DNA from: a virus
IMG/VR virus record: IMGVR_UViG_3300048592_000460
Location: 1-35,123 of that record
DNA length: 35,123 bases
Strand: one strand, 5' to 3'
Shown here: one piece after another, positions 1 to 35,123 of the stretch
How positions within the stretch are numbered: position 1 is the stretch's first letter
Layout of the letters: each line of letters starts with the position of its first letter
Position numbers and translations under genes: made by a program
Notes under the pieces: generated by a model
The model's database searches: none
What the model was told of the DNA's origin: nothing
Seen by the model: the letters and a program-made list of their open reading frames with translations, nothing else

Positions 1-557
1 CTGATCCGCCTTACTCAAGCGGCGGCCTGATGCGCTCCGACCGGAACAACAAGACCTCGGACAAATACACCAAGACCGGAACGCTGAAAATGCACCCCGA
101 GTTCTACGGCGACAACCGCGACCAGAGAAGCTTCCTGGCATGGGCTTCCATGTGGCTCTCCGAGTGCTTCCGCGTGACTAAGGAGGGCGGCGTGCTGATG
201 TGCTTCACCGACTGGCGGCAAATCCCCATCATGACGGACGCCATTCAGTGCGGCGGCTATGTGTGGCGCGGGATCGTGCCGTGGGACAAGACCGAAGGAG
301 TCCGCCCGCAAATGGGATGGTTTCGCGCTCAGTGCGAATACGTCCTGACGGCGAGCCGTGGCAGCATGGGACAAGAACAAACCCGCGACGTGAAAGTGTG
401 CCTGCCGGGAATCTTCCGTGAAAACGTCAGGGCATCGGAAAAGCAGCACATCACCGGGAAGCCGGTGCCACTGATGAAGCGACTGATGGAAGTGCTGCCG
501 CAAGGCTCCATCGTGCTGGACCCGTTCGCAGGCTCTGGGACAACGGCACTGGCCGCC
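1..557. repeat. Terminal direct repeat, left copy (circular genome overlap)
   Basis: Bases 1-557 match 34567-35123 except at two positions: 73 (A here, T at 34639) and 430 (G here, T at 34996). Both differences change an amino acid of the methyltransferase (Lys versus Met, Arg versus Met). The overlap lies inside one gene that reads straight across the join, so it looks like assembly of a circular or circularly permuted molecule, not a biological terminal repeat. The two mismatches probably reflect population variants. Confidence 0.9.
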
Positions 558-716
558 AAGGAGATGAACATGAAAAGCATCAGCGTCGAAATGTCGGCGG
601 CATACTGCGAGCGCATCAAGGACCGACTCTCGCAGGAAGTGCTGCCGCTTTTTGATTCGGCGAACGCCACAGTGGTGGCGCGGGCCGAACAACCAACCAA
701 CACCGAATTGGAATGA
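1..716 (+). CDS. DNA methyltransferase (N6-adenine/N4-cytosine, beta class), 3' part of a gene split by the window
   Basis: The window cuts this gene; the 5' part is at 34395-35123. Joined across the circle it encodes 295 residues. The catalytic DPPY motif is encoded at bases 3-14 (about residues 59-62), and the AdoMet-binding motif DPFAGSGT lies near residue 230. Catalytic motif before AdoMet motif is the order of the beta class of amino-methyltransferases (pfam N6_N4_Mtase). The first in-window ATG at 30 is not the real start because it lies after DPPY. No restriction enzyme is adjacent, so it is probably an orphan enzyme protecting phage DNA from host restriction. The stop overlaps the next start (ATGA). 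The gene is a unit of the cassette-like array: its front octamer at 34468 is complementary to bases 658-665. Confidence 0.9.
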   Translation, partial: DPPYSSGGLMRSDRNNKTSDKYTKTGTLKMHPEFYGDNRDQRSFLAWASMWLSECFRVTKEGGVLMCFTDWRQIPIMTDAIQCGGYVWRGIVPWDKTEGVRPQMGWFRAQCEYVLTASRGSMGQEQTRDVKVCLPGIFRENVRASEKQHITGKPVPLMKRLMEVLPQGSIVLDPFAGSGTTALAAKEMNMKSISVEMSAAYCERIKDRLSQEVLPLFDSANATVVARAEQPTNTELE

Positions 717-768
717 GCACTCCCAAACAACCTACTGATACCCGTCGCCACGCACGACTTGTTCATCC
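658..768 (+). repeat. attC-like palindromic site S6
   Basis: The left end CGGCGAAC (658-665) is followed by GCC. The right arm CCCGTCGCCAC (741-751) pairs with GTGGCGCGGG (675-684), leaving one unpaired base. GTCG at 744 is 17 nt before GTTCATCC (761-768), preceded by CTT. The left octamer is the exact complement of GTTCGCCG at 34468, the front of the methyltransferase unit. It does not match GTTCATCC on the other side of this same site. Confidence 0.8.
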
Positions 769-979
769 GTGCGCCGACTGCGGGAAAGAGGGCGAATGGC
801 CGCTCCTTATGAACTCGACCGTCGTGGGTCACTTCGAGCGCCTATGCCCGGACTGCCGGGAGGAAAACGACCCCGAGAACGTCATGCGGGAACCATGCTC
901 GCACTGCCACGGCTCAGGCCGGGAATGGGAAGGCTGGGACTGCGAATACTGCGACGGAACCGGCTGCGGAGATTATTAG
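713..979 (+). CDS. Small zinc-ribbon protein with DnaJ-like CxxCxGxG repeats
   Basis: Eighty-eight residues with four cysteine pairs: CADC, CPDC, CSHCHGSG and CEYCDGTG. The last two are CxxCxGxG units like those in the zinc-binding region of DnaJ, so the protein probably binds two zinc ions. There is no J domain. The start overlaps the stop of the methyltransferase (ATGA at 713-716), suggesting translational coupling. The cassette-type boundary GTTCATCC (761) falls 16 codons into the gene, so the N-terminal leader is encoded by the preceding inter-gene site. The stop codon lies directly before the matching end GGATGAAC (979-986). Function is unknown; zinc-mediated protein or nucleic-acid binding is the most that can be inferred. 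Confidence 0.75.
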   Translation: MSTPKQPTDTRRHARLVHPCADCGKEGEWPLLMNSTVVGHFERLCPDCREENDPENVMREPCSHCHGSGREWEGWDCEYCDGTGCGDY

Positions 980-1105
980 GATGAACGCTGATGTGCAGGC
1001 GATCCGGACCGGGAGCGCCACGCCGACACCACTCAAACTTCAGTAATCATCATGGAAAACCAACAACATAGCGGGTCCGGGTCGCCTGGCATGACTTGTT
1101 CTCCG
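979..1105 (+). repeat. attC-like palindromic site S7
   Basis: The left end GGATGAAC (979-986) is followed by GC. CAGGCGATCCGGACC (996-1010) pairs with GGTCCGGGTCGCCTG (1074-1088) with one mismatch. GTCG at 1081 is 17 nt before GTTCTCCG (1098-1105), preceded by CTT. The left octamer complements GTTCATCC at 761, the front of its own gene unit. The loop contains the start codon of the next gene. Confidence 0.85.
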
Positions 1106-1465
1106 TCGTCACCGGAGCCGTGGATTGGGAACTGCCCGAAATGCCGCACGGCATATCGGACACACGCCCCGAAGGACACAACGAAGCCGCTTGAAATTCA
1201 ATGTCAGAGAATGGAATGCCTGGGGATGGTAGTCATGACTCCCATCGGAGGGTTCCCAGAAACGGACAACGACACGGAGGCGGAACTGGCCGCATGGGAA
1301 TTGCTCAGGGATGCTCGCGCCGAACTGGAAACGCTCCGTGATGCGGTGCGCAACTTCCGAGACGTGAAAGGGCGCTTCCATACGCAACTGGCCGCTGAAC
1401 GCCTGATCGCCCTTCTTCCGGAGAACGCCAGCCTATCCCACGGGGAGGGCGAAAAAAGACCATGA
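1052..1465 (+). CDS. Small zinc-ribbon protein, Lar-like (putative restriction alleviation)
   Basis: This encodes 137 residues. A short Ser/Gly/Pro-rich leader is followed by a zinc-ribbon pattern, CPKC near residue 29 and CQRMEC about 25 residues later. The second half is helical and charged, probably a coiled coil around residues 75-110. The ribbon, then a threonine/alanine stretch with Trp, resembles the layout of Lar-type restriction-alleviation proteins, but similarity is weak and I would not name it Lar. It lies between two methyltransferases. The start is ATG 1052; ATG 1091 is a possible alternative. The unit boundary GTTCTCCG (1098) lies inside the coding sequence, and the C-terminal PENA is encoded by the complementary end at 1419. 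It overlaps the next gene by 4 nt. Confidence 0.7.
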   Translation: MENQQHSGSGSPGMTCSPSSPEPWIGNCPKCRTAYRTHAPKDTTKPLEIQCQRMECLGMVVMTPIGGFPETDNDTEAELAAWELLRDARAELETLRDAVRNFRDVKGRFHTQLAAERLIALLPENASLSHGEGEKRP

Positions 1466-1518
1466 ATACTGAAACGACATCGCCGCCCTCCCCGTTGGGA
1501 TCAGGCACTTGTTCTCCG
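1419..1518 (+). repeat. attC-like palindromic site S8 (strongest arms)
   Basis: The left end CGGAGAAC (1419-1426) is followed by GCC. ATCCCACGGGGAGGGCG (1435-1451) pairs with the 18-mer at 1484-1501 with a single unpaired T on the right arm. GTTG at 1494 is 17 nt before GTTCTCCG (1511-1518), again after CTT. The loop carries the ATG of the second methyltransferase. Confidence 0.9.
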
Positions 1519-2148
1519 TTGCTGGATCTACGGTTGACCGACTGTATGGACTTCCTGCGGGCGACTCCCGACAATGCCTATGACCTCGCCATCGTGGACC
1601 CTCCGTATGGACTCGGTGACGTGCTGGTGGCTGGAGGAACATGGTCGGTGAAGTATCAGGCCAAGGGGGCGAAATGGGACGTGAAGCCGGAGGCTGAATA
1701 CTTCGAGCAACTCCGGCGCGTGGCGAAAAACTGGATCGTATGGGGCGCGAACTACTACTCGGAACACCTCCCGCCAACGCGGGGATTCGTCGTCTGGCAC
1801 AAGCCGAACATGGAAGGAATGCACACGATGGCGAACTGTGAACTGGCATGGACGAGCTTCGACCGGAACGCCAAGACGGTATCAATCACGCGGCCAAACG
1901 AGGACAGAATCCACGTCTGCCAAAAGCCGGTGAAGCTCTATGACTGGCTGCTGGCGAACTACGCCAAGCCCGGCGACCGCATCTTGGATACGCACATGGG
2001 AAGCGGAAGCATCGCCATCGCCTGCCACTTCCGGGGGCATCCGCTCACGGCCTGCGAGATCGCCCCGGAATACTTTGCTGCCGCAAAAGCCCGCATTGAA
2101 CGGGAGACGGCGCAACTCACCCTTTTTACGGAGAACAGTGAATTATAA
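1462..2148 (+). CDS. Second DNA methyltransferase (beta class, DPPY type)
   Basis: This encodes 228 residues. The catalytic DPPYG lies at residues 46-50 and the AdoMet motif DTHMGSGS near residues 175-182. The order again indicates the beta group of N6/N4 amino-methyltransferases. It is shorter than most, with a reduced target-recognition segment between the motifs, and differs clearly from the methyltransferase spanning the window ends. No cognate nuclease is nearby, so an anti-restriction or epigenetic role is likely. The start overlaps the previous stop (ATGA region at 1462). The first 17 codons lie upstream of the unit boundary GTTCTCCGT (1511-1519); the C-terminal TENS is encoded by its exact complement ACGGAGAAC at 2128-2136. 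This is the last unit of the array. Confidence 0.88.
   Translation: MNTETTSPPSPLGSGTCSPLLDLRLTDCMDFLRATPDNAYDLAIVDPPYGLGDVLVAGGTWSVKYQAKGAKWDVKPEAEYFEQLRRVAKNWIVWGANYYSEHLPPTRGFVVWHKPNMEGMHTMANCELAWTSFDRNAKTVSITRPNEDRIHVCQKPVKLYDWLLANYAKPGDRILDTHMGSGSIAIACHFRGHPLTACEIAPEYFAAAKARIERETAQLTLFTENSEL
2128..2136 (+). repeat. Terminal half-site closing the cassette array
   Basis: ACGGAGAAC is the exact 9-bp complement of GTTCTCCGT at 1511-1519, the front of the same gene unit. Unlike the other seven strong sites it is followed by AG, not GC, and I find no right arm with CTTGTT downstream. The array therefore appears to end here, before the replication genes. The following 2149-2246 is non-coding and has a short hairpin (CGCTCG 2198-2203 with CGAGCG 2214-2219). 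Confidence 0.65.
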
Positions 2149-2246: not shown

Positions 2247-3584
2247 ATGAAATTCGATCCTGATCAACGCGCGGCGCTTGCCCGTATCAACGAAGGCCGC
2301 AATGTGTTTGTCACCGGACCGGCCGGGACTGGAAAGTCATCGATCACCGTGGAGGCCATCCGCCGCCGGCTGGGAGATCGATCGCTCAAAGTGTGCGCGA
2401 CGACCGGCGTGGCGGCACTCAACCTACGCGACAAACTGCACGCGCTGTTCGGCGAACATGTGGACACCTCGACGATCTACCGCTGGGCAGGCATCGGGCT
2501 GGGGCCGCGCGAAGGGCAATCGTTCGACGATTACTTTTCCTACATGAGGACGCGCGGGTATTCATTCAAGGGTGCCTGCGCCCGCATCCGTGGCACCCGC
2601 ACGCTGATCGTGGACGAGGTGAGCATGCTGCCCGGGCGGATCATCGAGTTCGTGGATTACGTGTGCCAAGCGATCCGCAATGACGAGCGGCCGTTCGGTG
2701 GAATCCAGGTGATCGCGGTGGGGGATTTCCTGCAGCTGCCCCCAGTGGCGAAGACCGGACGATACGACTGGGCATTCCAATCAGAAACATGGACGGCGCT
2801 CGATTTCTCGGCGGTCTCGCTGCGCACGGTCCACCGGCAGGACGATCCAGAGTTCATCTCGATCCTCAACCAGTTCCGCGAAGGCACGGTGACCAAGGAC
2901 GGCGCCGCAATCCTGAAAAAGCGGGTGGCGATGTTTCCGAAAGCCTCGATCCTGCGGTTGTTCACCCACAACGCCCAAGTCGACAAGTGGAACGCCTATC
3001 AGCTCGGCGCGATCGATGCGCCCGAACACGTGCTGCATGCGGAAGGCCACGGCCCGAAGGATGAGGTGGAATGGCTGCAGAAGAACCTGGTCACGCCGAC
3101 CGAGCTGCGCATCAAACCCGGCGCCCGGGTGATGGTGACCGCGAACCTGCCGAGCGGCGACGGCGAGACGCTGGTGGCCGCCAATGGCGACTTGGGCGCG
3201 GTGACCGGCTGGGATCCGACGTGCGTGCACGTGCTGCTCGACAACGGCCGGGAGATCGAGGTGGAACCGCACACGTGGGAGTTCGATCCGACGACCGAGG
3301 CGGAAACCGGGGAGTTCATCCAGTTCCCGCTGCGGCTGGCGTGGGCGTGCACGATCCACAAATCCCAAGGGCTCACGCTCGACAACGCGCTCATCGACAT
3401 CCGCGCGGCCCGCGAGCCCGGGCAGGCATACGTGGCCGTCAGCCGCGTGAAGTCTCTGGCAGGCCTGCATCTCAAGGACTGGTTCCAAGGGATGTTCATC
3501 AGCCCGCAGGCCAAGGAGTTCCACCGCCGCATCGCCGCCGGGGTATCAAATGATACCAGCGCTCCGACTTTCAAACTTTCATGA
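2247..3584 (+). CDS. PIF1/RecD-like superfamily 1 DNA helicase
   Basis: This encodes 445 residues with a clear SF1B helicase motif series. Walker A GPAGTGKSS is near residue 24. Walker B LIVDEVSML and then VGDFLQLPP, the PIF1/RecD/Dda-type motifs II-III, are near residues 122-160. TIHKSQGLT, motif V/VI region, is near residue 370. This places it with ATP-dependent 5'-3' helicases that act on forks and recombination intermediates. It heads a cluster with HNH and primase genes, so it is probably part of phage DNA replication. The product lacks the N-terminal extension of cellular PIF1 and is close in length to phage Dda-type enzymes. The stop overlaps the next ATG (ATGA, 3581-3584). Confidence 0.9.
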   Translation: MKFDPDQRAALARINEGRNVFVTGPAGTGKSSITVEAIRRRLGDRSLKVCATTGVAALNLRDKLHALFGEHVDTSTIYRWAGIGLGPREGQSFDDYFSYMRTRGYSFKGACARIRGTRTLIVDEVSMLPGRIIEFVDYVCQAIRNDERPFGGIQVIAVGDFLQLPPVAKTGRYDWAFQSETWTALDFSAVSLRTVHRQDDPEFISILNQFREGTVTKDGAAILKKRVAMFPKASILRLFTHNAQVDKWNAYQLGAIDAPEHVLHAEGHGPKDEVEWLQKNLVTPTELRIKPGARVMVTANLPSGDGETLVAANGDLGAVTGWDPTCVHVLLDNGREIEVEPHTWEFDPTTEAETGEFIQFPLRLAWACTIHKSQGLTLDNALIDIRAAREPGQAYVAVSRVKSLAGLHLKDWFQGMFISPQAKEFHRRIAAGVSNDTSAPTFKLS

Positions 3585-4030: not shown

Positions 4031-6694
4031 ATGACCTCACCCATGCGCCTCGCCGACCGCTACCCCAACAAACCCGAACCCAAAGGCCCGAAATTCGACT
4101 ATTACACCCAGGCCGAGGCCGCGCGACCATCGGCCGAAACCACCCTCAAGGATCTGATCGATGCCATTCGTGGAGACGATTTCGCGGAGCCGGTGGCGGT
4201 GATCCGCAAGCTCATTGAGCAGGGGGACAAGAAGGCGGCGGATATCCTCAAGAAGAAACTGCCAGCCGTCAGCATCTCAGGATGCGTGGAAGGCCGCCGA
4301 GCGAAGGCGGCCGAACAGGGGCGCTTCACCCACTCCGGCCTGCTTCAAATCGATCTGGATGCCAAGGATAACATCGGGTGGAGCGTCGAGGAAATGCGTG
4401 ACTTGCTCGCCCGTGACCCGCGCATGGTGGCGGTGTTCGTTTCCGCATCCGGCGAAGGTGTGAAGGGCGTGGCGCGCATTCCCGCAGACGCCAGCACTCA
4501 TCGGGCTTGCTTTCTCGCCGCCGAGGCTCACTTCAAATCGATGAACCTTGTGATCGATCCGGCATGCAAGGACCCTGTGCGGCTGTGTTTCATTTCGCAC
4601 GATCCGCGCGCCTGGTTGCGAATGGATACCGACGAGATGTTTGAGCCGGTGGAGTTGGCCGTGGTGGAGGATTTGGATGATGAAGAAGAGTCATTGGCTG
4701 CCACGAGCGAATCAGAAGACGCCACACCCAAGGCGAAGAGATATTCCGTGAGTGATGGTGGAGGATTGGTGATTCACGCCGCTGACAGGCTGCCGCTCGA
4801 TGCCGCGGCAGTGCGCTCGATGCTGGCCATGATCCCCCCGCGGCCGGAATACAATGAGTGGTTGAAAATCGCCTCGGCGGTGTGGGATGCGCTGGGAGAG
4901 GAAGAAGGCACCGCGGCGCTTTGTGCGTGGAGTCCGGAGGAGAAAGAGGGTGAATACGCCACGAAATTTCAAAAACGGCTCACTGACGTGCACGCTGCCA
5001 CATTGGTGATGCGCGCCAAAGCGAACGGATGGTTTCAGCCCGTGCTCTCGTCAGTGGCCGCACCTCGGGCAATCAAGGATGTGGTGGCTGGCAAAAAGAC
5101 CAAGGATCCCCATGCGATCCCCCCGCACGTCTTTCCCGTGCCAACCGGGGACATCGGATACGATTTGGCCGCGAGACATATTTTCACGATCATCGGCCCG
5201 ACCAAGCGCTTGTTCATCCGCGGCACGACCGTGCATGAAGTCGAGACAGGCGATGACGGCTCGCGAGAACTGCGCGCCGTGCAAGCAAAACGGATGATTT
5301 CCATGATCGAGACGTTTGGCGCCCGCGTGATGCGGCGCGAGATGCGCGAGGACGGCACGCCACGGTGGCGATCGGCAACGTTTCCGGCTCAGTCAGCGGA
5401 CGCGATCATGGAATCCGACGCCGCCCGCGAACTGCTTCCAGCCATCCGGCAGTTGATATCAGCGCCAGTCATTGCTCCGGATGGCAATGGAGGGTCATTG
5501 ACGCTGGCACCTGGCCACCACCCGCATGCAGGCGGGACGTTCATCACAGGCGGAAAAATGCCGCCCACGGTGCCACTCGACCAAGCAAGGGAATTGCTGA
5601 TGGATGCGTTGTGCGATTTCGACTTCCCTGAAGGTGGTGACGCATCCCGCGGATTGGCGTCACTCATTTCACCTGCCCTAAAAATGGGCGGTTGGATCGA
5701 TGATGATTTCCCGCTCGATCTGGCAGAGGCCGATCAATCTCAATCCGGAAAGAGCTATCGGTTCCGGTTGATCCACGCCATTTACCGGGAGGCCCCATCG
5801 GCCATTGCTCAGGCTGTCGGTGGTGTGGGAAGTCTTGACGAGAGGGTTTCCAGGGCGCTCATGAAGGGCCGGCCATTCATCACGTTTGATAACTTCCGAG
5901 GCCGACTCGACAGCCAGATCCTCGAGACTGCAATCCGCGGGCTTGGACGAGTGGACGCCCGGTCCTTGCGCGAAGCCGCGGATATCGATTGCACTCCATT
6001 CGTTTGGCAACTCAGCACCAACGGCGCGGAGTTGACACGGGATATTGCCAACCGATCCGTGATCACCCGCATCCGGAAGCGTTCCGCGGATCATGAGTGG
6101 CGCCACTATCCAGAAGGGGATTTGATTGCCCACGTGAAGCGGAACCAGCCGCTTTACCTTGGAGCGGTGCATGCCGTTGTGCGAGAGTGGGCCGCCCAAG
6201 GATGCCCACGAACACGCGAGTCGAGGCATGACTTCAGAACATGGTGCCAGACGCTCGACTGGATTGTCCAAAACCTGTTCGGATTGCCTCCCCTGCTGGA
6301 TGGGCACCGCGAGGAGCAGATGCGCACCGCCAACCCCAAACTCCAATGGCTGCGGGACGTGATCAACGCACTCGTCAACGATGGCCACCAAGGGCAGGCG
6401 CTCACAGCATCCGACCTTGCCGAAGCCAGCGAAGAACATGACCTGGCAATGCCAGGCCGACGCGATTCATCAGAAGCGATGGAAGTGCGCGTGGGGAAAC
6501 TGCTGGGTAGGTTGTTCCGTGAGGCGGGCAAGGACACGATCAGCATCGACGGGCGATGGTTCTCAAGGCAGGTTTCGAATGAATGGAACCCGGCAAATCG
6601 GACGCATATCGAGCGGAAAATTTACGTCATTGAGGTGTTCAACCCAGAGACGACTACTGTTCAAACTGATGAGACCGACCTGACCTTGCTTTGA
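4031..6694 (+). CDS. Large primase-helicase (VirE-N/BT4734-like, PriCT and P-loop domains)
   Basis: This encodes 887 residues. Residues about 70-200 resemble the BT4734/VirE N-terminal domain, an archaeo-eukaryotic-type primase fold seen in phages and Bacteroidota elements, with LLQIDLDAKD as a likely metal-binding motif. An acidic linker follows. Residues about 265-335 match the PriCT-2 type primase C-terminal helical domain. The last third has an ATPase core: a degenerate Walker A DQSQSGKSY near residue 565, a Walker B-like FITFDNF near 620, and an arginine-rich RSVITRIRKR near 675. The whole resembles fused primase-helicases that start replication at a phage origin. The non-coding region immediately downstream, with iterons and inverted repeats, would be a suitable target. 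The start follows an A-rich leader without a Shine-Dalgarno sequence. Confidence 0.85.
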   Translation: MTSPMRLADRYPNKPEPKGPKFDYYTQAEAARPSAETTLKDLIDAIRGDDFAEPVAVIRKLIEQGDKKAADILKKKLPAVSISGCVEGRRAKAAEQGRFTHSGLLQIDLDAKDNIGWSVEEMRDLLARDPRMVAVFVSASGEGVKGVARIPADASTHRACFLAAEAHFKSMNLVIDPACKDPVRLCFISHDPRAWLRMDTDEMFEPVELAVVEDLDDEEESLAATSESEDATPKAKRYSVSDGGGLVIHAADRLPLDAAAVRSMLAMIPPRPEYNEWLKIASAVWDALGEEEGTAALCAWSPEEKEGEYATKFQKRLTDVHAATLVMRAKANGWFQPVLSSVAAPRAIKDVVAGKKTKDPHAIPPHVFPVPTGDIGYDLAARHIFTIIGPTKRLFIRGTTVHEVETGDDGSRELRAVQAKRMISMIETFGARVMRREMREDGTPRWRSATFPAQSADAIMESDAARELLPAIRQLISAPVIAPDGNGGSLTLAPGHHPHAGGTFITGGKMPPTVPLDQARELLMDALCDFDFPEGGDASRGLASLISPALKMGGWIDDDFPLDLAEADQSQSGKSYRFRLIHAIYREAPSAIAQAVGGVGSLDERVSRALMKGRPFITFDNFRGRLDSQILETAIRGLGRVDARSLREAADIDCTPFVWQLSTNGAELTRDIANRSVITRIRKRSADHEWRHYPEGDLIAHVKRNQPLYLGAVHAVVREWAAQGCPRTRESRHDFRTWCQTLDWIVQNLFGLPPLLDGHREEQMRTANPKLQWLRDVINALVNDGHQGQALTASDLAEASEEHDLAMPGRRDSSEAMEVRVGKLLGRLFREAGKDTISIDGRWFSRQVSNEWNPANRTHIERKIYVIEVFNPETTTVQTDETDLTLL

Positions 6695-17845: not shown

Positions 17846-17921
17846 AAACGCGGAGTAGTTCAGTTGGTAGATCAGCGGACTCATATTCCGCAGCGCGTCG
17901 GTTCGATTCCGACCTCCGCAT
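17846..17921 (+). tRNA. tRNA with CAU anticodon and initiator-like C1xA72 mismatch, CCA encoded
   Basis: A full cloverleaf of 76 nt. The acceptor is 17846-17852 with 17911-17917, whose first position is an unpaired C opposite A. The D arm has the usual A14, GG and A21 but a U-U mismatch at 11-24. The anticodon stem GCGGA/UCCGC carries loop CUCAUAU (anticodon CAU). The T arm GUCGG/CCGAC has loop UUCGAUU. U is the discriminator and CCA is encoded. C1xA72 marks bacterial initiator tRNA, but the three G-C pairs of the initiator anticodon stem are incomplete (GGA/UCC) and U73 is unusual. Elongator Met or tRNA-Ile2 are alternatives. Confidence 0.85.
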
Positions 17922-17951
17922 CCAGCTTTTTTCTCAAAACCAGCCAGCCAT

Positions 17952-30980: not shown

Positions 30981-31363
30981 ATACGCACGAATCACAACCC
31001 ATCACCGTTGGAAACCCGCGCAACGTGCCGCTGCTGGCCTATCACCGACACGCCATGACTGCCTGCATCGATGCGATGTGGGACGATCCTGTGATGTCTC
31101 CACATCGCAAAGAGATCGAGCCGATCTTTGCCCAGCTCGCCATCGATGATGACATCGATTCCGCGATTGAGGATGCTTGTGAATACTTCCTCGACGGCGT
31201 GTTCGATGACGAGCACCAAGCAGCGCAGTGGAAGACCGCCATGGAGCACTGCGAAGGATGGATACGCGAATACTCGGAACTTTGGCTGAAGCTGAACCGG
31301 GCCGAACTGAAGGAGATGGAGCGCATTCTATCAAAACTCGACAAGGAAAAGACAAAGCCATGA
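30977..31363 (+). CDS. Acidic helical early protein of unknown function
   Basis: This encodes 128 residues from ATG 30977. The pattern is helical and acidic (IEPIFAQLAIDDDIDSAIEDA, EYFLDGVFDDE), then a basic helix ending in LKEMERILSKLDKEKTKP. No motif. It is translationally coupled on both sides, with RusA following (ATGA at 31360), so it belongs to the recombination operon. Confidence 0.55.
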   Translation: MNTHESQPITVGNPRNVPLLAYHRHAMTACIDAMWDDPVMSPHRKEIEPIFAQLAIDDDIDSAIEDACEYFLDGVFDDEHQAAQWKTAMEHCEGWIREYSELWLKLNRAELKEMERILSKLDKEKTKP

Positions 31364-31842
31364 GAAACACCGTTCCAGAAACCACGATTCAGCGCATTCC
31401 GCTGCACACGTTCCGCGCCAATGGAATGCCGAAGGGACAGCCACGCCCGCGGGCATTCACCCGGGGCGCCCGCGCCGCTGTCTATGACCCCGGCACGGCC
31501 GAAGGCTGGAAGGGCGATGTGGCCCGCGCCTGCGCCGAGCTGGAAGGCCAACGGATCCACGTGCCGCTCTCGGTCACGCTGACATTTTACATGCCGCGGC
31601 CCAAGGGCCACTACCGGACCAACGGCCAATTGAAGCCCGCCGCACCGGTTTTCATGCATACGGGGAAACCGGATGCCGACAATCTGGCAAAGGCGGTGCT
31701 TGACGCGCTGACCAACATCGGAGCATGGCTCGACGATGACCAGGTGTGCGAGTTGGTGATCCGGAAGTATTGGGAGCAGCCCTCGACGCATGGCCCGGGT
31801 TGTGTGATCCGGATCAGCGAAATGCGGGAGGTGGAACTGTGA
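31360..31842 (+). CDS. RusA-type Holliday junction resolvase
   Basis: This encodes 160 residues. RusA hallmarks are a PKGQPRPRAFTRG start segment, PRPKGHY, and KPDADNLAKAVLDAL followed by DDDQVCELVIRKY, in which the Asp residues coordinate the metal that cuts four-way DNA junctions. The enzyme resolves recombination and replication intermediates before packaging. It is the last gene of the early operon; the cassette-like array begins downstream. Length is slightly above the E. coli enzyme (120 residues). Confidence 0.88.
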   Translation: MRNTVPETTIQRIPLHTFRANGMPKGQPRPRAFTRGARAAVYDPGTAEGWKGDVARACAELEGQRIHVPLSVTLTFYMPRPKGHYRTNGQLKPAAPVFMHTGKPDADNLAKAVLDALTNIGAWLDDDQVCELVIRKYWEQPSTHGPGCVIRISEMREVEL

Positions 31843-31926: not shown

Positions 31927-31993
31927 CCTGGACAGCTACGAAAAAGCCAATGAACCGCGAAAGGCTCATTGGCTGCGCTGACTGGTCCTGCGG
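31927..31993 (+). repeat. attC-like palindromic site S1 (weakest of the series)
   Basis: The left end TGGAC (31929-31933) sits against GTCC at 31985. AGCCAATGA (31945-31953) pairs with TCATTGGCT (31966-31974), and ATTG at 31968 is 17 nt before GTCCTGCGG (31985-31993), preceded by CTG. GTCCTGCGG matches the complement of the unit end CCGCAGAAC (32646-32654) at 8 of 9 positions. The left arm does not carry AACGC. Confidence 0.5.
31941..31974 (-). terminator. Rho-independent terminator of the leftward two-gene operon
   Basis: On the minus strand, a perfect 9-bp stem (31974-31966 with 31953-31945) is followed by a run of five T (31945-31941). It terminates the operon 32519-31997. Its stem is the inner arm pair of site S1. 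Confidence 0.75.
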
Positions 31994-31996
31994 TTT

Positions 31997-32251
31997 TCAG
32001 ATGCCAAGACGCGTCCGGACGCTTCGCAAAGGAACCGGCTTTTCGTCGCGCCTAGCTGCCGCAACGGCGACATCAGGATCTCCCTTGGGAACTGGAATTG
32101 ATCGGATGGCCATTGCAGCTTCCGAGGTAATCGTAGCCGCCCCAGTTTCGCGGCGGGTAACGGTCTCGCGGGTGATACCAAGGATGTCAGCCAGTTTTGA
32201 TTGTGTGACTCCAAGTCGCTCACGAGCGGCTTTGTATTGTTCGGCGGTCAT
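31997..32251 (-). CDS. XRE-family helix-turn-helix protein
   Basis: This encodes 84 residues. The start MTAEQYKAARERLGVTQSK followed by LADILGITRETVTRRETG is a full HTH_XRE domain. The C-terminus is a short basic segment without extra domain. It lies 4 bp after the upstream gene of the same strand and before terminator S1. It may be a repressor of its own cassette or an antitoxin-like factor. No toxin is recognised next to it. Confidence 0.75.
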   Translation of the reverse strand: MTAEQYKAARERLGVTQSKLADILGITRETVTRRETGAATITSEAAMAIRSIPVPKGDPDVAVAAARRDEKPVPLRSVRTRLGI

Positions 32252-32255
32252 GGCA

Positions 32256-32519
32256 TCAGTCCTTGAGTTCCCAGTAGAGGGCGAGGTCAGTGGTTCTCCA
32301 ATCGCCCCGTGCCGATGCCGCGACGGCGCAAAGAAAAATATCGGCGTGAAGCGGAGAGATTCCGCCAGCGATCAAATCGTCTTTCGTGACGGTCATCAGC
32401 GCGGTGTCTTTTTCGTCACAGACGAAACGATCGGTGAACAAAAACTCAAACATTCCGCCTTCCTGCATTCCGTCTTTGACGGCTTGGATTTCGGACTTGG
32501 GGTATTCGGTGGTGGTCAT
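32256..32519 (-). CDS. Small protein of unknown function, paired with XRE protein
   Basis: This encodes 87 residues from ATG 32519 (the upstream TTG 32579 would add a poorly supported leader). Segments YPKSEIQAVKDGMQEGGMFEFLFTDRF and DLIAGGISPLHADIFLCAVA are of mixed structure. It precedes the XRE gene in a two-gene operon. A toxin-antitoxin-like or restriction-type role is possible but not supported by motifs. Confidence 0.6.
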   Translation of the reverse strand: MTTTEYPKSEIQAVKDGMQEGGMFEFLFTDRFVCDEKDTALMTVTKDDLIAGGISPLHADIFLCAVAASARGDWRTTDLALYWELKD

Positions 32520-32645
32520 GGTGGGGTGGTTCTTTTGGATTCTTACGGATCGCGTCGTGCTCGCCGTCAACGCAGGCAATGTGACTTATCCTCACCACAA
32601 ACACAAGAGAAAAATGTGATTTTTTTTCACACGGCGGATTTTTGT

Positions 32646-32767
32646 CCGCAGAACGCTGAGCCCACACACCCCGCCGACAACGCATGATCGCTGCCCTCCA
32701 GATGCTTAAAAACCCCGCCAACTCCAACTGCGGAGCGGGCGGGGTTGTGTGCGGCGTCTTGTTGAGT
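32646..32767 (+). repeat. attC-like palindromic site S2
   Basis: Left end CCGCAGAAC (32646-32654), followed by GC. CACACACCCCGCC (32663-32675) pairs with GGCGGGGTTGTGTG (32738-32751), leaving one unpaired base on the right arm. GTTG at 32744 is 17 nt before GTTGAGT (32761-32767), preceded by CTT. GTTGAGT is complementary to ACTCAAC at 33439, the end of the same gene unit. Confidence 0.85.
32709..32746 (-). terminator. Rho-independent terminator of the ParB-like/XRE operon
   Basis: On the minus strand, AACCCCGCC and GGCGGGGTT (9 bp) enclose a GC-rich loop; the second arm is followed by TTT. It lies 30 bp beyond the stop of the XRE gene (32777). Its promoter-distal stem uses the right arm of site S2. 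Confidence 0.75.
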
Positions 32768-32776
32768 ATCTTTGAC

Positions 32777-33013
32777 TCAAACGAGGGTGGACATGACATT
32801 CAGGGCGGCGGCGGTCGGCATCCTGCCTTGCTCCCAGCCCTCGACTGTGCGCCGCGATACTCCGCAGAGATCGGCAAGCGCCTGCGTGGTCAGCCCGCCG
32901 CACTTGTTGCGGATCGCCTTGATGCCCGGAGCGTAGTCCATGACTTGGCCAGCGTCGTTGATGATGATGGGCTGGCCGTAACTACTGGATGGATGGTTGG
33001 TGGTGACTCTCAT
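32777..33013 (-). CDS. XRE-like regulator of the ParB-like operon
   Basis: This encodes 78 residues. The C-terminal half is an HTH: LTTQALADLCGVSRRTVEGWEQGR. The N-terminal part is a short polar arm with an IIINDAGQVMDYAPGIKAIRN stretch. The start is 4 bp after the stop of the ParB-like gene. It probably controls the palindromic operators at 33364 and 33396. Confidence 0.7.
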   Translation of the reverse strand: MRVTTNHPSSSYGQPIIINDAGQVMDYAPGIKAIRNKCGGLTTQALADLCGVSRRTVEGWEQGRMPTAAALNVMSTLV

Positions 33014-33016
33014 GGC

Positions 33017-33337
33017 TTACTCCTCCTCAAAAGTGATCATGTGGGGGTTGCTTCCGCAGTCGTAGATGTCCGCAAAAGTGTAGGGATCTTCAAAGGTGCC
33101 GGGAAAAACCTCGTTGACCTCTTGGTCCAAGTCTTCGACTTCGTATTCTTCGATCTCTGGCGTAAGGCCGAGGGCTTCGGCAGCGCGCAAGCGGTGGCAG
33201 CCCTCCAGCGCGAACCAGATGCCGTGGCACTCGCTCCAAATGGCCTTGATGGTCGGAGCACCAATCTCGCGCATTTCTGCGATCACTTTAGCGAGGTGGC
33301 CTTTGTCGTAGTCGGAGTGGAGGAGGACGATTGTCAT
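33017..33337 (-). CDS. Small ParB/sulfiredoxin-like domain protein
   Basis: This encodes 106 residues. Near residues 42-60 it has the ParB-type signature: WFALEGCHRLRAAEALGL, that is (D/E)G-x-HR-x-x-AA, with an upstream TIKAIWSE strand, indicating the ParB/Srx CTPase or nuclease-like core. The remaining part is acidic. It lacks the DNA-binding HTH and C-terminal dimerisation of full plasmid ParB and there is no ParA, so it is more likely a stand-alone nuclease or regulator. It is first in a two-gene leftward operon with a strong promoter. Confidence 0.7.
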   Translation of the reverse strand: MTIVLLHSDYDKGHLAKVIAEMREIGAPTIKAIWSECHGIWFALEGCHRLRAAEALGLTPEIEEYEVEDLDQEVNEVFPGTFEDPYTFADIYDCGSNPHMITFEEE

Positions 33338-33360
33338 GGCGGTCAGTGGTTACGGAGGAG

Positions 33361-33413
33361 AGATTACGCAATCGTGCGTAAGAGTCAACAACTATTTACG
33401 CAATCGTGCGTAT
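33361..33413 (-). promoter_or_regulatory. Leftward sigma-70 promoter with two palindromic operators
   Basis: Minus-strand -35 TTGACT (33388-33383), 16-bp spacer, -10 TAATCT (33366-33361). Two 18-bp copies of TTACGCAATCGTGCGTA(A/T), with 7-bp TTACGCA/TGCGTAA arms (the last base of the second copy differs), lie at 33364-33381 (in the spacer and on the -10) and 33396-33413 (upstream of -35), centres 32 bp apart. A dimeric repressor bound here would shut off the operon; the encoded XRE protein is the prime candidate. Confidence 0.85.
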
Positions 33414-33438
33414 TTTTTCTGCGGGCGGTTTTTCGTCC

Positions 33439-33526
33439 ACTCAACGCCTCTGTGATGGCACGGCCAGATGGCGGCCTGAATACCTAACCGACGTTCCAGC
33501 CGTTGCCATCCACGGCTGGTTCTGCC
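33439..33526 (+). repeat. attC-like palindromic site S3
   Basis: Left end ACTCAAC (33439-33445), then GCC. GTGATGGCACGGC (33452-33464) pairs with the right arm 33499-33513, leaving two unpaired bases (a C and a T on the right arm). GTTG at 33502 is 17 nt before GTTCTGCC (33519-33526), here preceded by CTG. The left end complements GTTGAGT at 32761, not GTTCTGCC. Confidence 0.85.
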
Positions 33527-33554
33527 TCTTCCGAATTACCAACCAACCCCGAAT

Positions 33555-34007
33555 ATGGAAACGCAAGATCCCCACGAATGGTGGGCCAAGCAGGCCGCCA
33601 ACATCGCCACTCTGATGAAAAATACCGGAGTCGGAGAACTCATCATCCGCCGCAAGCCTGATGGGAAATACACGTTCGAGGTCACGCCGGAGGGCGAATC
33701 CCGCAGGATCTCAGGAAGCGAAATGATCTCCACCGAACGCGAGCGGCAAGTAACCTCCGAAGGGTGGACTCCAGAACATGATGACGAACACGACAAAGCG
33801 GAACTCGCGCAGGCCGCTGGCTACTACCTACACGAAGCGATCATCAAGACAAAATATGGCACAAATTCACTCCACTACGAACACCCGATTCGCTGGCCGT
33901 GGGAGGAAAAAAGCTGGAAGCCGTCTGAAGATCCTGCGCGCAACCTGGTTAAAGCTGGCGCACTGATCGCGGCGGAAATCGACCGTCTTTCTCGGCAGAA
34001 CGCCTAG
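33555..34007 (+). CDS. Conserved phage accessory protein (ERxRQ...EGWTPEHDD family)
   Basis: This encodes 150 residues. The motif TERERQVTSEGWTPEHDDEHDKAELAQAAGYYLHEA followed by WPWEEKSWKPSEDPARNLVKAGALIAAEIDRLSR is split over residues about 59-148 and belongs to a family of small proteins widespread in phages and integrated elements whose biochemical role is unknown. This is the only unit of the array in which the boundary (33519) precedes the start codon. The C-terminal RQNA and stop are encoded by the unit's own end GGCAGAAC-GCC (33994). It starts 36 nt after the boundary. Confidence 0.75.
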   Translation: METQDPHEWWAKQAANIATLMKNTGVGELIIRRKPDGKYTFEVTPEGESRRISGSEMISTERERQVTSEGWTPEHDDEHDKAELAQAAGYYLHEAIIKTKYGTNSLHYEHPIRWPWEEKSWKPSEDPARNLVKAGALIAAEIDRLSRQNA

Positions 34008-34116
34008 CTCTGGCACCGCGCCGAGAGCGCGGCCAGACACACCTAGAATCTATGAAACCACCAATCAAATCCGACACGGAGCGGGGCGCGGTTGACCAGC
34101 CGCGGCTTGTTCTGCC
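33994..34116 (+). repeat. attC-like palindromic site S4
   Basis: Left end GGCAGAAC (33994-34001), then GCC. CTGGCACCGCGCC (34010-34022) pairs with GGCGCGGTTGACCAG (34085-34099), leaving two unpaired bases on the right arm. GTTG at 34091 is 18 nt before GTTCTGCC (34109-34116), preceded by CTT. Left end and front of the unit at 33519 are exact complements. It includes a separate hairpin (TCTGGC 34009-34014 with GCCAGA 34039-34044). Confidence 0.85.
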
Positions 34117-34393
34117 TTTCTTTCGCGTCATCGTATCCAAGCTCGAAGGCGGGCACCGCTGGCGCATCGTCTCAAATCCTCGCTGGGATCATTGCACGAG
34201 AGGCCAATCGGCGATCCTCGACAACACGTGCAACGACTACGCGGAATACACCAACTGCGGCGTCGTCTATCGCATGATCCGCATGGAGAAAATCCGCGAA
34301 TACGTGGACGGTCGGAAATTCGATCCGGCGTGGTCTCTCGATCCTCGGCAGAACGCACAAGGTGACTCACAGCCCACCGACGAAAGACCTTAA
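34052..34393 (+). CDS. Accessory protein of unknown function
   Basis: This encodes 113 residues. A polar leader (first 19 residues) is encoded by the loop and right arm of S4, followed by QPRLVLPFFRVIVSKLEGGHRW, a beta-rich middle and a basic Asp/Arg-rich end. The GTTCTGCC boundary (34109) is in frame and encodes the VLP of this region. The C-terminal part RQNA is encoded by the unit end GGCAGAAC at 34347. The stop precedes the methyltransferase start by 1 nt. No family recognised. Confidence 0.65.
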   Translation: MKPPIKSDTERGAVDQPRLVLPFFRVIVSKLEGGHRWRIVSNPRWDHCTRGQSAILDNTCNDYAEYTNCGVVYRMIRMEKIREYVDGRKFDPAWSLDPRQNAQGDSQPTDERP

Positions 34394-34475
34394 TATGGAA
34401 ACGAATACCGAAATACCAGAAACCTCCGCCGAAGCGGAAACGGGTGGGCTGTTGAGTCCACCGCCTTGTTCGCCG
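34347..34475 (+). repeat. attC-like palindromic site S5
   Basis: Left end GGCAGAAC (34347-34354), then GCA. The 18-mer at 34361-34378 pairs with the 20-mer at 34443-34462, leaving two unpaired bases on the right arm at the same relative positions as in S3. GTTG at 34451 is 17 nt before GTTCGCCG (34468-34475), preceded by CTT. Left end complements 34109 (own unit front), not the GTTCGCCG of the next unit. Confidence 0.9.
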
Positions 34476-35123
34476 TTTTGGGTGTGCGACTACGCCACCG
34501 TCTATGCTGGCGACTGTCTCAACGTCCTGCGCTCGCTTCCAAGCCAAAGCGTGGACGCTGTGGTCACTGATCCGCCTTACTCAAGCGGCGGCCTGATGCG
34601 CTCCGACCGGAACAACAAGACCTCGGACAAATACACCATGACCGGAACGCTGAAAATGCACCCCGAGTTCTACGGCGACAACCGCGACCAGAGAAGCTTC
34701 CTGGCATGGGCTTCCATGTGGCTCTCCGAGTGCTTCCGCGTGACTAAGGAGGGCGGCGTGCTGATGTGCTTCACCGACTGGCGGCAAATCCCCATCATGA
34801 CGGACGCCATTCAGTGCGGCGGCTATGTGTGGCGCGGGATCGTGCCGTGGGACAAGACCGAAGGAGTCCGCCCGCAAATGGGATGGTTTCGCGCTCAGTG
34901 CGAATACGTCCTGACGGCGAGCCGTGGCAGCATGGGACAAGAACAAACCCGCGACGTGAAAGTGTGCCTGCCGGGAATCTTCCGTGAAAACGTCATGGCA
35001 TCGGAAAAGCAGCACATCACCGGGAAGCCGGTGCCACTGATGAAGCGACTGATGGAAGTGCTGCCGCAAGGCTCCATCGTGCTGGACCCGTTCGCAGGCT
35101 CTGGGACAACGGCACTGGCCGCC
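34395..35123 (+). CDS. DNA methyltransferase, 5' part of the gene split by the window
   Basis: ATG 34395 starts the 295-residue enzyme whose remainder is at 1-716 on the circle. The first 24 residues are an acidic, Thr/Glu/Pro-rich leader encoded by the loop of S5; the fold begins around VCDYATVYAGDCLNVLRSLPS with the GD(C)L motif, and DPPY follows at about residues 59-62. The unit boundary GTTCGCCG (34468-34475) falls within the leader, and its complement CGGCGAAC ends the unit at 658-665. The coding frame is open to the window end. Relative to the copy at 1-557, this copy has Met for Lys and Met for Arg at the two variable positions. Confidence 0.9.
   Translation, partial: METNTEIPETSAEAETGGLLSPPPCSPFWVCDYATVYAGDCLNVLRSLPSQSVDAVVTDPPYSSGGLMRSDRNNKTSDKYTMTGTLKMHPEFYGDNRDQRSFLAWASMWLSECFRVTKEGGVLMCFTDWRQIPIMTDAIQCGGYVWRGIVPWDKTEGVRPQMGWFRAQCEYVLTASRGSMGQEQTRDVKVCLPGIFRENVMASEKQHITGKPVPLMKRLMEVLPQGSIVLDPFAGSGTTALAA
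34567..35123. repeat. Terminal direct repeat, right copy
   Basis: Partner of 1-557, with T at 34639 and 34996 where the left copy has A and G. Both differences create or remove CATG. Confidence 0.9.

Follow-up and report, generated by a model that had tools for sequence, protein, structure and literature searches.

Seven predicted minus-strand attC sites and their probably phage-adapted integron cassettes in a circular tailed-phage genome

The DNA analysed here, referred to as the window (35,123 nucleotides; IMG/VR record IMGVR_UViG_3300048592_000460), is a circular viral record of 34,566 bp followed by an inexact 557-bp end repeat, in which positions 34567-35123 duplicate positions 1-557 with 2 mismatches. 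Because the record is circular, the two halves of an array of small genes lying at its ends are continuous, just as the original prediction for this DNA had assumed, and the array spans the circle join from a RusA resolvase gene to the gene of a Pif1-like helicase. We consider it highly probable that the array is made up of seven integron cassettes adapted to a phage operon, which have their attC sites on the minus strand and would be moved by an integron integrase (IntI) supplied from outside. From left to right across the circle join, the array and its flanks read as follows.

31228-31842, plus strand: RusA resolvase, left flank of the array.
32654-33444, minus strand: helix-turn-helix (HTH) cassette, with an HTH regulator gene (33013-32777) and a ParB-like-looking open reading frame (ORF; 33337-33017) without a Pfam match.
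33445-34000, plus strand: cassette of a 150-residue ORF (33555-34007).
34001-34353, plus strand: cassette of a 113-residue ORF (34052-34393), with its start codon in site S4 and its stop in S5.
34354-34566 then 1-664, plus strand: MT1 cassette, with an N6/N4 DNA methyltransferase gene running from 34395 across the circle join to 716.
665-985, plus strand: zinc-ribbon cassette, encoding a zinc-ribbon/DnaJ-CXXCXGXG-like protein (713-979).
986-1425, plus strand: c137 cassette, a 137-residue ORF (1052-1465) whose stop overlaps the next start as ATGA.
1426-2135, plus strand: MT2 cassette, with an N6/N4 DNA methyltransferase gene (1462-2148; Pfam 7.7e-13).
2136-2147, minus strand: attI-like end without a hairpin, TATAATTCACTG^TT, comparable to TTAATCAYTG^TT beside intI in related phages.
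2247-3584, plus strand: Pif1-like helicase, right flank and backbone marker.

The cassettes are separated by hairpin sites, of which the original prediction had counted eight (S1-S8). We searched for them with two covariance models. The first, R1, was built from 15 phage sites, seven being the window's own, and was run with default filters; the second, R2, was built from 27 bacterial and class 1 plasmid sites and includes no window or phage sequence. The sites identified, with their scores, are listed below.

S2, 32647-32768, minus strand: attC, R1 46.9 bits, R2 40.5 bits; in attC orientation, the last cassette ends here.
S3, 33438-33526, minus strand: attC, R1 41.2 bits.
S4, 33994-34116, minus strand: attC, R1 49.6 bits, R2 30.5 bits.
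S5, 34347-34475, minus strand: attC, R1 47.8 bits, R2 48.3 bits.
S6, 658-768, minus strand: attC, R1 48.4 bits.
S7, 979-1105, minus strand: attC, R1 46.6 bits, R2 30.7 bits.
S8, 1419-1518, minus strand: attC, R1 45.9 bits; a homologous attC accompanies the MT2 cassette in two other phage contigs, L253 and L255.

R1 found S2-S8 at E<=2e-9, all on the minus strand, and elsewhere in the window nothing scored better than E=0.5. In two class 1 integrons, the same model locates attC-aadA at its exact known position and in the orientation inferred here. With filters off, several true sites scored lower, probably owing to their long loops. R2 recognised S5, S2, S7 and S4 (E 4e-10 to 1e-5, all minus strand), and gave no further match in the window up to E=2; it is not fully independent, because the phage-derived R1 selected and aligned its 27 members. 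The recognition of four sites by R2 also means that the system, correctly described beforehand as integron-related, is not merely one with a diverged core, even though the class 1 core consensus RYYYAAC is not matched by the window sites.

The structural details point the same way. Covariation at the sites is 0.498, compared with 0.172 for shuffled and 0.08-0.10 for slid controls. A strict pattern, AAC-N8-[base]-N6-[A]...GC-GTT, occurs at five window sites, all on the minus strand and all inside the array, whereas six shuffles of the window gave 2, 0, 1, 0, 0 and 0 matches. In attC sites as published, the R''-L'' arm carries the extra-helical bases, among them a T spaced 6-8 nt from the first, and the bottom-strand AAC of R' is followed by a G (Bouvier 2009, PMC2727003). 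In the window they lie on that arm, 6 bp apart and with an A (bottom-strand T); in S7 a mismatch replaces the second extra-helical base, and S4 is slightly irregular. The sites also have an unpaired spacer and a variable terminal loop, as attC requires. Judged by these sequence features, S2-S8 are attC sites. With seven of them (at least two are needed) and no PF00589 match in the record, the window is by definition a cluster of attC sites lacking an integron integrase (CALIN).

In all seven units from S2 to the right end of the array, the front of the unit is the exact complement of its end, which is what had been claimed for the units in the original prediction:

32761/33439: GTTGAGT/ACTCAAC.
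33519/33994 and 34109/34347: GTTCTGCC/GGCAGAAC.
34468/658, over the circle join: GTTCGCCG/CGGCGAAC.
761/979: GTTCATCC/GGATGAAC.
1098/1419: GTTCTCCG/CGGAGAAC.
1511/2128: GTTCTCCGT/ACGGAGAAC.

With the GTT/AAC cores taken as given, the joint chance of seven such matches is about 1e-21. The eighth site, S1 (31927-31990), was ruled out as an attC, since its perfect hairpin runs into T5 on the minus strand, like a terminator. The hairpin itself occupies 31951-31982, and it is likely the terminator of a minus-strand HTH gene at 31997-32251. The end of the S1 unit is nearly complementary even so (GTCCTGCGG/CCGCAGAAC).

The orientation of the sites proved to be the reverse of the one originally proposed, namely plus-strand sites with a crossover at G^TT. 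Folding of both strands and alignment of the arms placed the unpaired bases on the arm adjoining the plus-strand GTT, that is, L'' read on the minus strand. With attC in this orientation, the joint falls at plus-strand AA^C (minus-strand G^TT) and each hairpin belongs to the gene on its right. The homology breakpoints in L253 and L255 give the same answer: hairpin S8 remains with MT2 across phages, which argues for a joint at AA^C rather than G^TT. Moreover, a hairpin is present at the left end, S2, and missing at the right end (2136), where an attI end on the minus strand would have none. The orientation of the sites on the minus strand is therefore the one that the sequences indicate. Most sites escaped an initial scan for plus-strand hairpins with AACGC cores, a discrepancy that the minus-strand reading resolved. 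Likewise, the notion that genes starting inside a site are N-terminal fusions produced by recombination, which belonged to the plus-strand reading, was dropped once the orientation had been fixed.

The MT2 cassette is present in contigs L252 and L253 with 94.7% DNA identity to the window and in L255 with 74% identity. The homology between the window and L253 covers only 1420-2139 and breaks off on both sides no more than a few bases from the predicted joints. To the left of MT2, the window has c137, L253 a DUF4326 gene and L255 an HTH cassette, while attC S8 is constant; the L255 HTH cassette is homologous to that of the window, which sits five cassettes away from MT2. L253 and L255 have no tested backbone gene in common with the window and carry hallmark genes of their own (DnaB and a head protein in L253, terminase in L255). 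A near-identical cassette in an unrelated phage implies recent movement, and the comparison of the three phages thus identifies cassette exchange at the joints, as far as sequences can. Closer relatives are informative as well. L005, whose backbone is mostly 76-86% identical, has RusA abutting the helicase without an insert, an empty site, and its own array is placed between helicase and primase; L009 has an array at the same place as the window with a different first cassette. In relatives without attC, other genes fill the RusA-helicase gap, and L006-L008 and L010-L013 gave no attC at a convincing score. Where integrases are similar but arrays differ (L062/L063, L048/L052), the intI region alone is in common. 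In short, order and content vary between phages with breaks at the joints, as the original prediction had proposed to check, and the conserved order that would have spoken against it was not seen. The best 80 of 565 relatives were retained in the genome scan. Relatives of the 150-residue ORF and MT2 genes in viral contigs include many distant homologues, most of them away from a recognised attC; the C-terminal part of the 150-residue ORF is widespread among viral contigs.

The window record itself contains no tyrosine recombinase (no PF00589 match), in agreement with the phage having been described as lacking an integrase. It has an attI-like end only, and is thus not a complete integron (intI, attI and array), whereas L020 and others are. 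L020 shares the helicase/primase backbone with the window and carries an integron integrase directly at the attI end of its array. This protein scores 268.6 bits against TIGR02249 (cut-off 265), is 38% identical to IntI1, aligns over the IntI-specific insert (KYP..HALAWFWVFPQH) and has the Vibrio integron integrase 2a3v as its best PDB match. A scan of viral contigs for integrases gave 42 loci, and 35 records were examined; viral status derives from IMG/VR and the named hallmark genes, and some records are fragments. Of these records, 16/35 exceed the TIGR02249 cut-off; most of the 16 match attC on the strand expected, and five contigs (G016, G017, G020, G023 and G024) combine terminase, attC and integrase. 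A quick tree of 117 integrase sequences yielded one fully supported clade in which 20 viral proteins are joined by no more than four from bacteria, each of them encoded in a Verrucomicrobiota metagenome-assembled genome (MAG); this clade is separate from all other integrases, including other Verrucomicrobiota ones. An integrase is thus identified by sequence in relatives of the window phage, and its kinship suggests that the phage host is probably a member of Verrucomicrobiota. In the intI-bearing phages, the boundary nearest intI resembles the R'' of the attC beside it: 14 of 16 phages agree at 8/8 positions and the remaining two at 7/8. Many of them share TTAATCAYTG^TT, and L009 and L255 have sequences resembling the window's; the attI-like ends of the window, L009 and L255 may therefore be remnants next to which no intI was detected.

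In standard integrons, cassette genes are sense to attC and directed away from intI. In phages we found the opposite. Among attC-bounded cassettes, the better-scoring frame is antisense to attC in 41/45 phage cassettes versus 4/13 bacterial ones (Fisher p=3.5e-5), and a strict ORF length measure gives 30/45 versus 1/13. In the window, genes are antisense in five of six scored cassettes, departing from the usual sense rule. A measure that does not use attC agrees: the genes that lie upstream of intI share its direction in 12 of 15 phages of the viral clade, as opposed to 4 of 36 bacterial loci (p=4e-6). Two of the MAG members of the clade, L088 and L090, have standard polarity, from which it follows that the flip tracks phages, not the clade; another, L089, does not, by the upstream-gene measure. 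L089 is an 8-kb Verrucomicrobiota MAG contig with phage-like co-directional genes beside the clade integrase, and could be a phage fragment binned with the MAG. The sequences thus indicate an inverted polarity of phage cassettes.

The joints show a second peculiarity. At 45/58 joints AAC is a codon of the incoming gene (phase 0; p=6e-12 versus one third), compared with 32/80 for GAACGC outside arrays and 7/17 for bacterial sites. Of the 45 phase-0 genes, 43 have their stop within the attC of the next cassette, 17 of them with ATGA overlapping the next start; c137 in the window and the DUF4326 gene in L253 both end in ATGA at MT2, whichever of the two precedes it. A fixed frame together with a stop in the next attC means that a gene can acquire a new downstream neighbour and retain both its stop and its coupling. 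We conclude from these sequences that the reading frame is locked at the joints. At the other end of the genes, five plus-strand window genes begin within a hairpin, including MT1, whose start codon lies within S5.

As to cargo, the original prediction of methyltransferases, a zinc-ribbon protein and regulators in integron-type cassettes of a tailed phage was borne out. MT1 matches Pfam N6_N4_Mtase at 1.6e-26; the zinc-ribbon protein matches DnaJ_CXXCXGXG at 5.6e-5, under the cut-off. Among 53 cassette proteins there are two Mom, two N6/N4 methyltransferases, one C5 methyltransferase and one Dam, along with HNH, HTH and zinc-ribbon proteins, the majority being without a family. This composition suggests that anti-restriction may be the theme and benefit of the cargo. 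Qi et al. (2023; PMC9892861) propose anti-restriction for their phage cassettes too.

Taken together, these observations suggest how the array may work. Each cassette would consist of a minus-strand attC and one gene unit on its right, bounded by plus-strand AA^C. An integron integrase would cut the folded single-stranded attC and excise the cassette as a circle, which would re-insert at another attC or at the attI-like sequence 2136-2147. Since the window phage has no integrase, movement would rely on one from a co-infecting phage such as L020, L047, L048, L052, L060 or L061, or else from the host; that is, we infer an integrase acting in trans. With genes antisense to attC, the array, intI where present, and the replication genes are co-directional. 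The start codon often lies in the terminal loop of attC, and each gene crosses the joint in a fixed frame into the next attC and stops there, often as ATGA with the next start. With the frame fixed through the joints, the operon should stay in frame and translationally coupled however the cassettes are ordered, and we infer that the genes are expressed by such coupling.

Going one step further, it is reasonably probable that we are dealing with a dedicated viral integron, in which unrelated phages have in common an IntI lineage largely specific to phages and a stock of frame-locked cassettes that face back to front, and the cassettes, rich in DNA-modifying anti-restriction genes, are shuffled as phage-operon modules. 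Several observations weigh against reading the array as phage-adapted integron cassettes. By plain ORF length, 3/15 clade phages are not co-directional, and the HTH cassette, the sole such case among the scored window cassettes, has standard polarity. The bacterial control for polarity at the attC level is small, with 13 cassettes from 3 loci. The control for phase outside arrays is itself 40% phase 0, and the frame-lock effect is therefore about five-fold in odds, less than the full departure from one third. Finally, the window phage has no integrase, and the shared cassette of high identity testifies to past, not present, movement.

The alternative that survives best, although we regard it as unlikely, is an ordinary CALIN, acquired a single time from the chromosomal integron of a host and by now inert, without any phage-specific adaptation. 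Such clusters and host-derived integrons in phages are on record in Qi et al. (2023; PMC9892861), the window lacks an integrase, and the four Verrucomicrobiota MAG integrases fall inside the viral clade. However, phage genes are antisense to attC (41/45) and bacterial ones mostly sense, the same-clade MAGs L088 and L090 included; bacterial sites show no frame lock; and the near-identical cassette in an unrelated phage implies recent movement rather than inertness. Far less probable is phage mosaicism, that is, homologous or illegitimate recombination at short shared sequences without an integrase. It would suit the location of the arrays in a variable RusA-helicase gap filled by other genes in relatives without attC, but in three phages the breaks on either side come to within a few bases of the predicted joint, the unit is exactly one attC and one gene, and relatives with intI exist. 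A plus-strand attC with crossover at G^TT and the hairpin owned by the gene on the left is more doubtful still: front/end complementarity alone fits either orientation, yet the extra-helical bases and all R1 and R2 hits are those of the minus strand, the hairpin is absent at the right end and present at S2, the MT2 homology takes in the entire left hairpin, and five plus-strand genes start in a hairpin. Intergenic terminators or RNA hairpins with no link to recombination can practically be dismissed, for even if S1 is a terminator and attC sites may double as weak ones (PMC9892861), S2-S8 show compensatory changes with conserved AAC/GTT and unpaired bases, are recognised by a bacterial attC model, undergo exchange at the joints and hold start codons in their loops.

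Part of this picture has been published. According to Qi et al. (2023; PMC9892861), attC clusters with methyltransferases occur in phages and are active in an IntI1 assay, IntI1 having used five of six tested phage attC sites. Their phage CALINs, in the tailed phages TJE1 (host Tetrasphaera), P12002L (Polaribacter) and PH101 (Pseudoalteromonas), resemble the window in having an attC array, no integrase and DNA methyltransferase cassettes; the integrons of their four phages with intI are of Vibrio, class 1 or Shewanella type. The TJE1 sites, missed by R1 and recovered by our direct scan, are sense with the genes, unlike those of the window. The parts of that paper that were read describe no frame lock, no shared viral integrase clade and no one-cassette exchange between unrelated phages. 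Bacterial chromosomal and class 1 integrons share with the phage arrays the AAC/GTT cores, extra-helical bases, the G^TT boundary and attI beside intI, and both bacterial integrons and phage relatives have IntI above the TIGR02249 cut-off. Their genes, however, are sense to attC and divergent from intI (32/36 loci), whereas those of phage arrays are antisense and co-directional. Treponema integrons (PMC3607928) have intI and cassette genes in the same direction, as phages do, but there it is intI that is flipped and reads toward attI, whereas in phages intI retains its customary place and direction, and it is the cassette genes that have turned round with respect to attC. ORF-11 at attI1 (PMC8876359) is like the phage joints in that its frame crosses the crossover, stops in the next cassette and helps translation; this coupling concerns attI1 only and a short leader, in contrast to most attC joints, whole genes and a fixed frame in phages. 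In the literature searched, which left out preprints and most subscription journals, we found no report of a phage integrase lineage, inverted polarity, a frame-locked cassette format or one-cassette exchange between unrelated phages. The inverted, frame-locked format, the mostly viral integrase clade and single-cassette exchange between unrelated phages thus appear to be new.

Integrons are known as bacterial systems, and phages were thought to hold occasional pieces of them. Our results suggest that phages may run their own version, with gene direction and frame fitted to a one-way operon. If true, it would be a viral counterpart of the bacterial cassette pool; placed in an ordinary bacterial integron, the genes of the viral pool would be antisense to the promoter of the cassettes. 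Two questions become testable: how individual genes for anti-restriction (Mom, Dam, N6/N4 and C5 methyltransferases) pass between unrelated phage genomes by site-specific recombination, and how the polarity of attC relative to the gene can be reversed in evolution.

Several minor observations were made along the way. A second set of viral integron integrases (L065-L083) lies outside the main clade, near Thermodesulfobacteriota, Myxococcota and other lineages; some have attC arrays (L083), and their genes are mostly co-directional too, so the format may have arisen more than once. In L169 (KX853513, Virus Rctr41k), a gene annotated xerD (4680-5678) is 38% identical to the L020 integron integrase; it has a long tree branch and lies among small co-directional genes with methyltransferases. 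At the N-termini of cassette proteins, attC-encoded leaders yield recurring tails (CSP, LV) around the GTT core in two frames. The 17-bp TTACGCAATCGTGCGTA occurs in two exact copies at 33364-33412, directly upstream of the HTH cassette's minus-strand genes; these are likely operators and would provide the one window cassette scored with standard polarity with its own promoter. The first 12 kb of the window gave no megablast match to known phages. The single Rfam match in the window is a tRNA, with no match to an attC family; this tRNA-Met (CAT) lies at 17849-17924, among structural genes. The two copies of the end repeat disagree at 73/34639 (A/T) and 430/34996 (G/T), both within MT1, which suggests a strain mixture or an assembly join.

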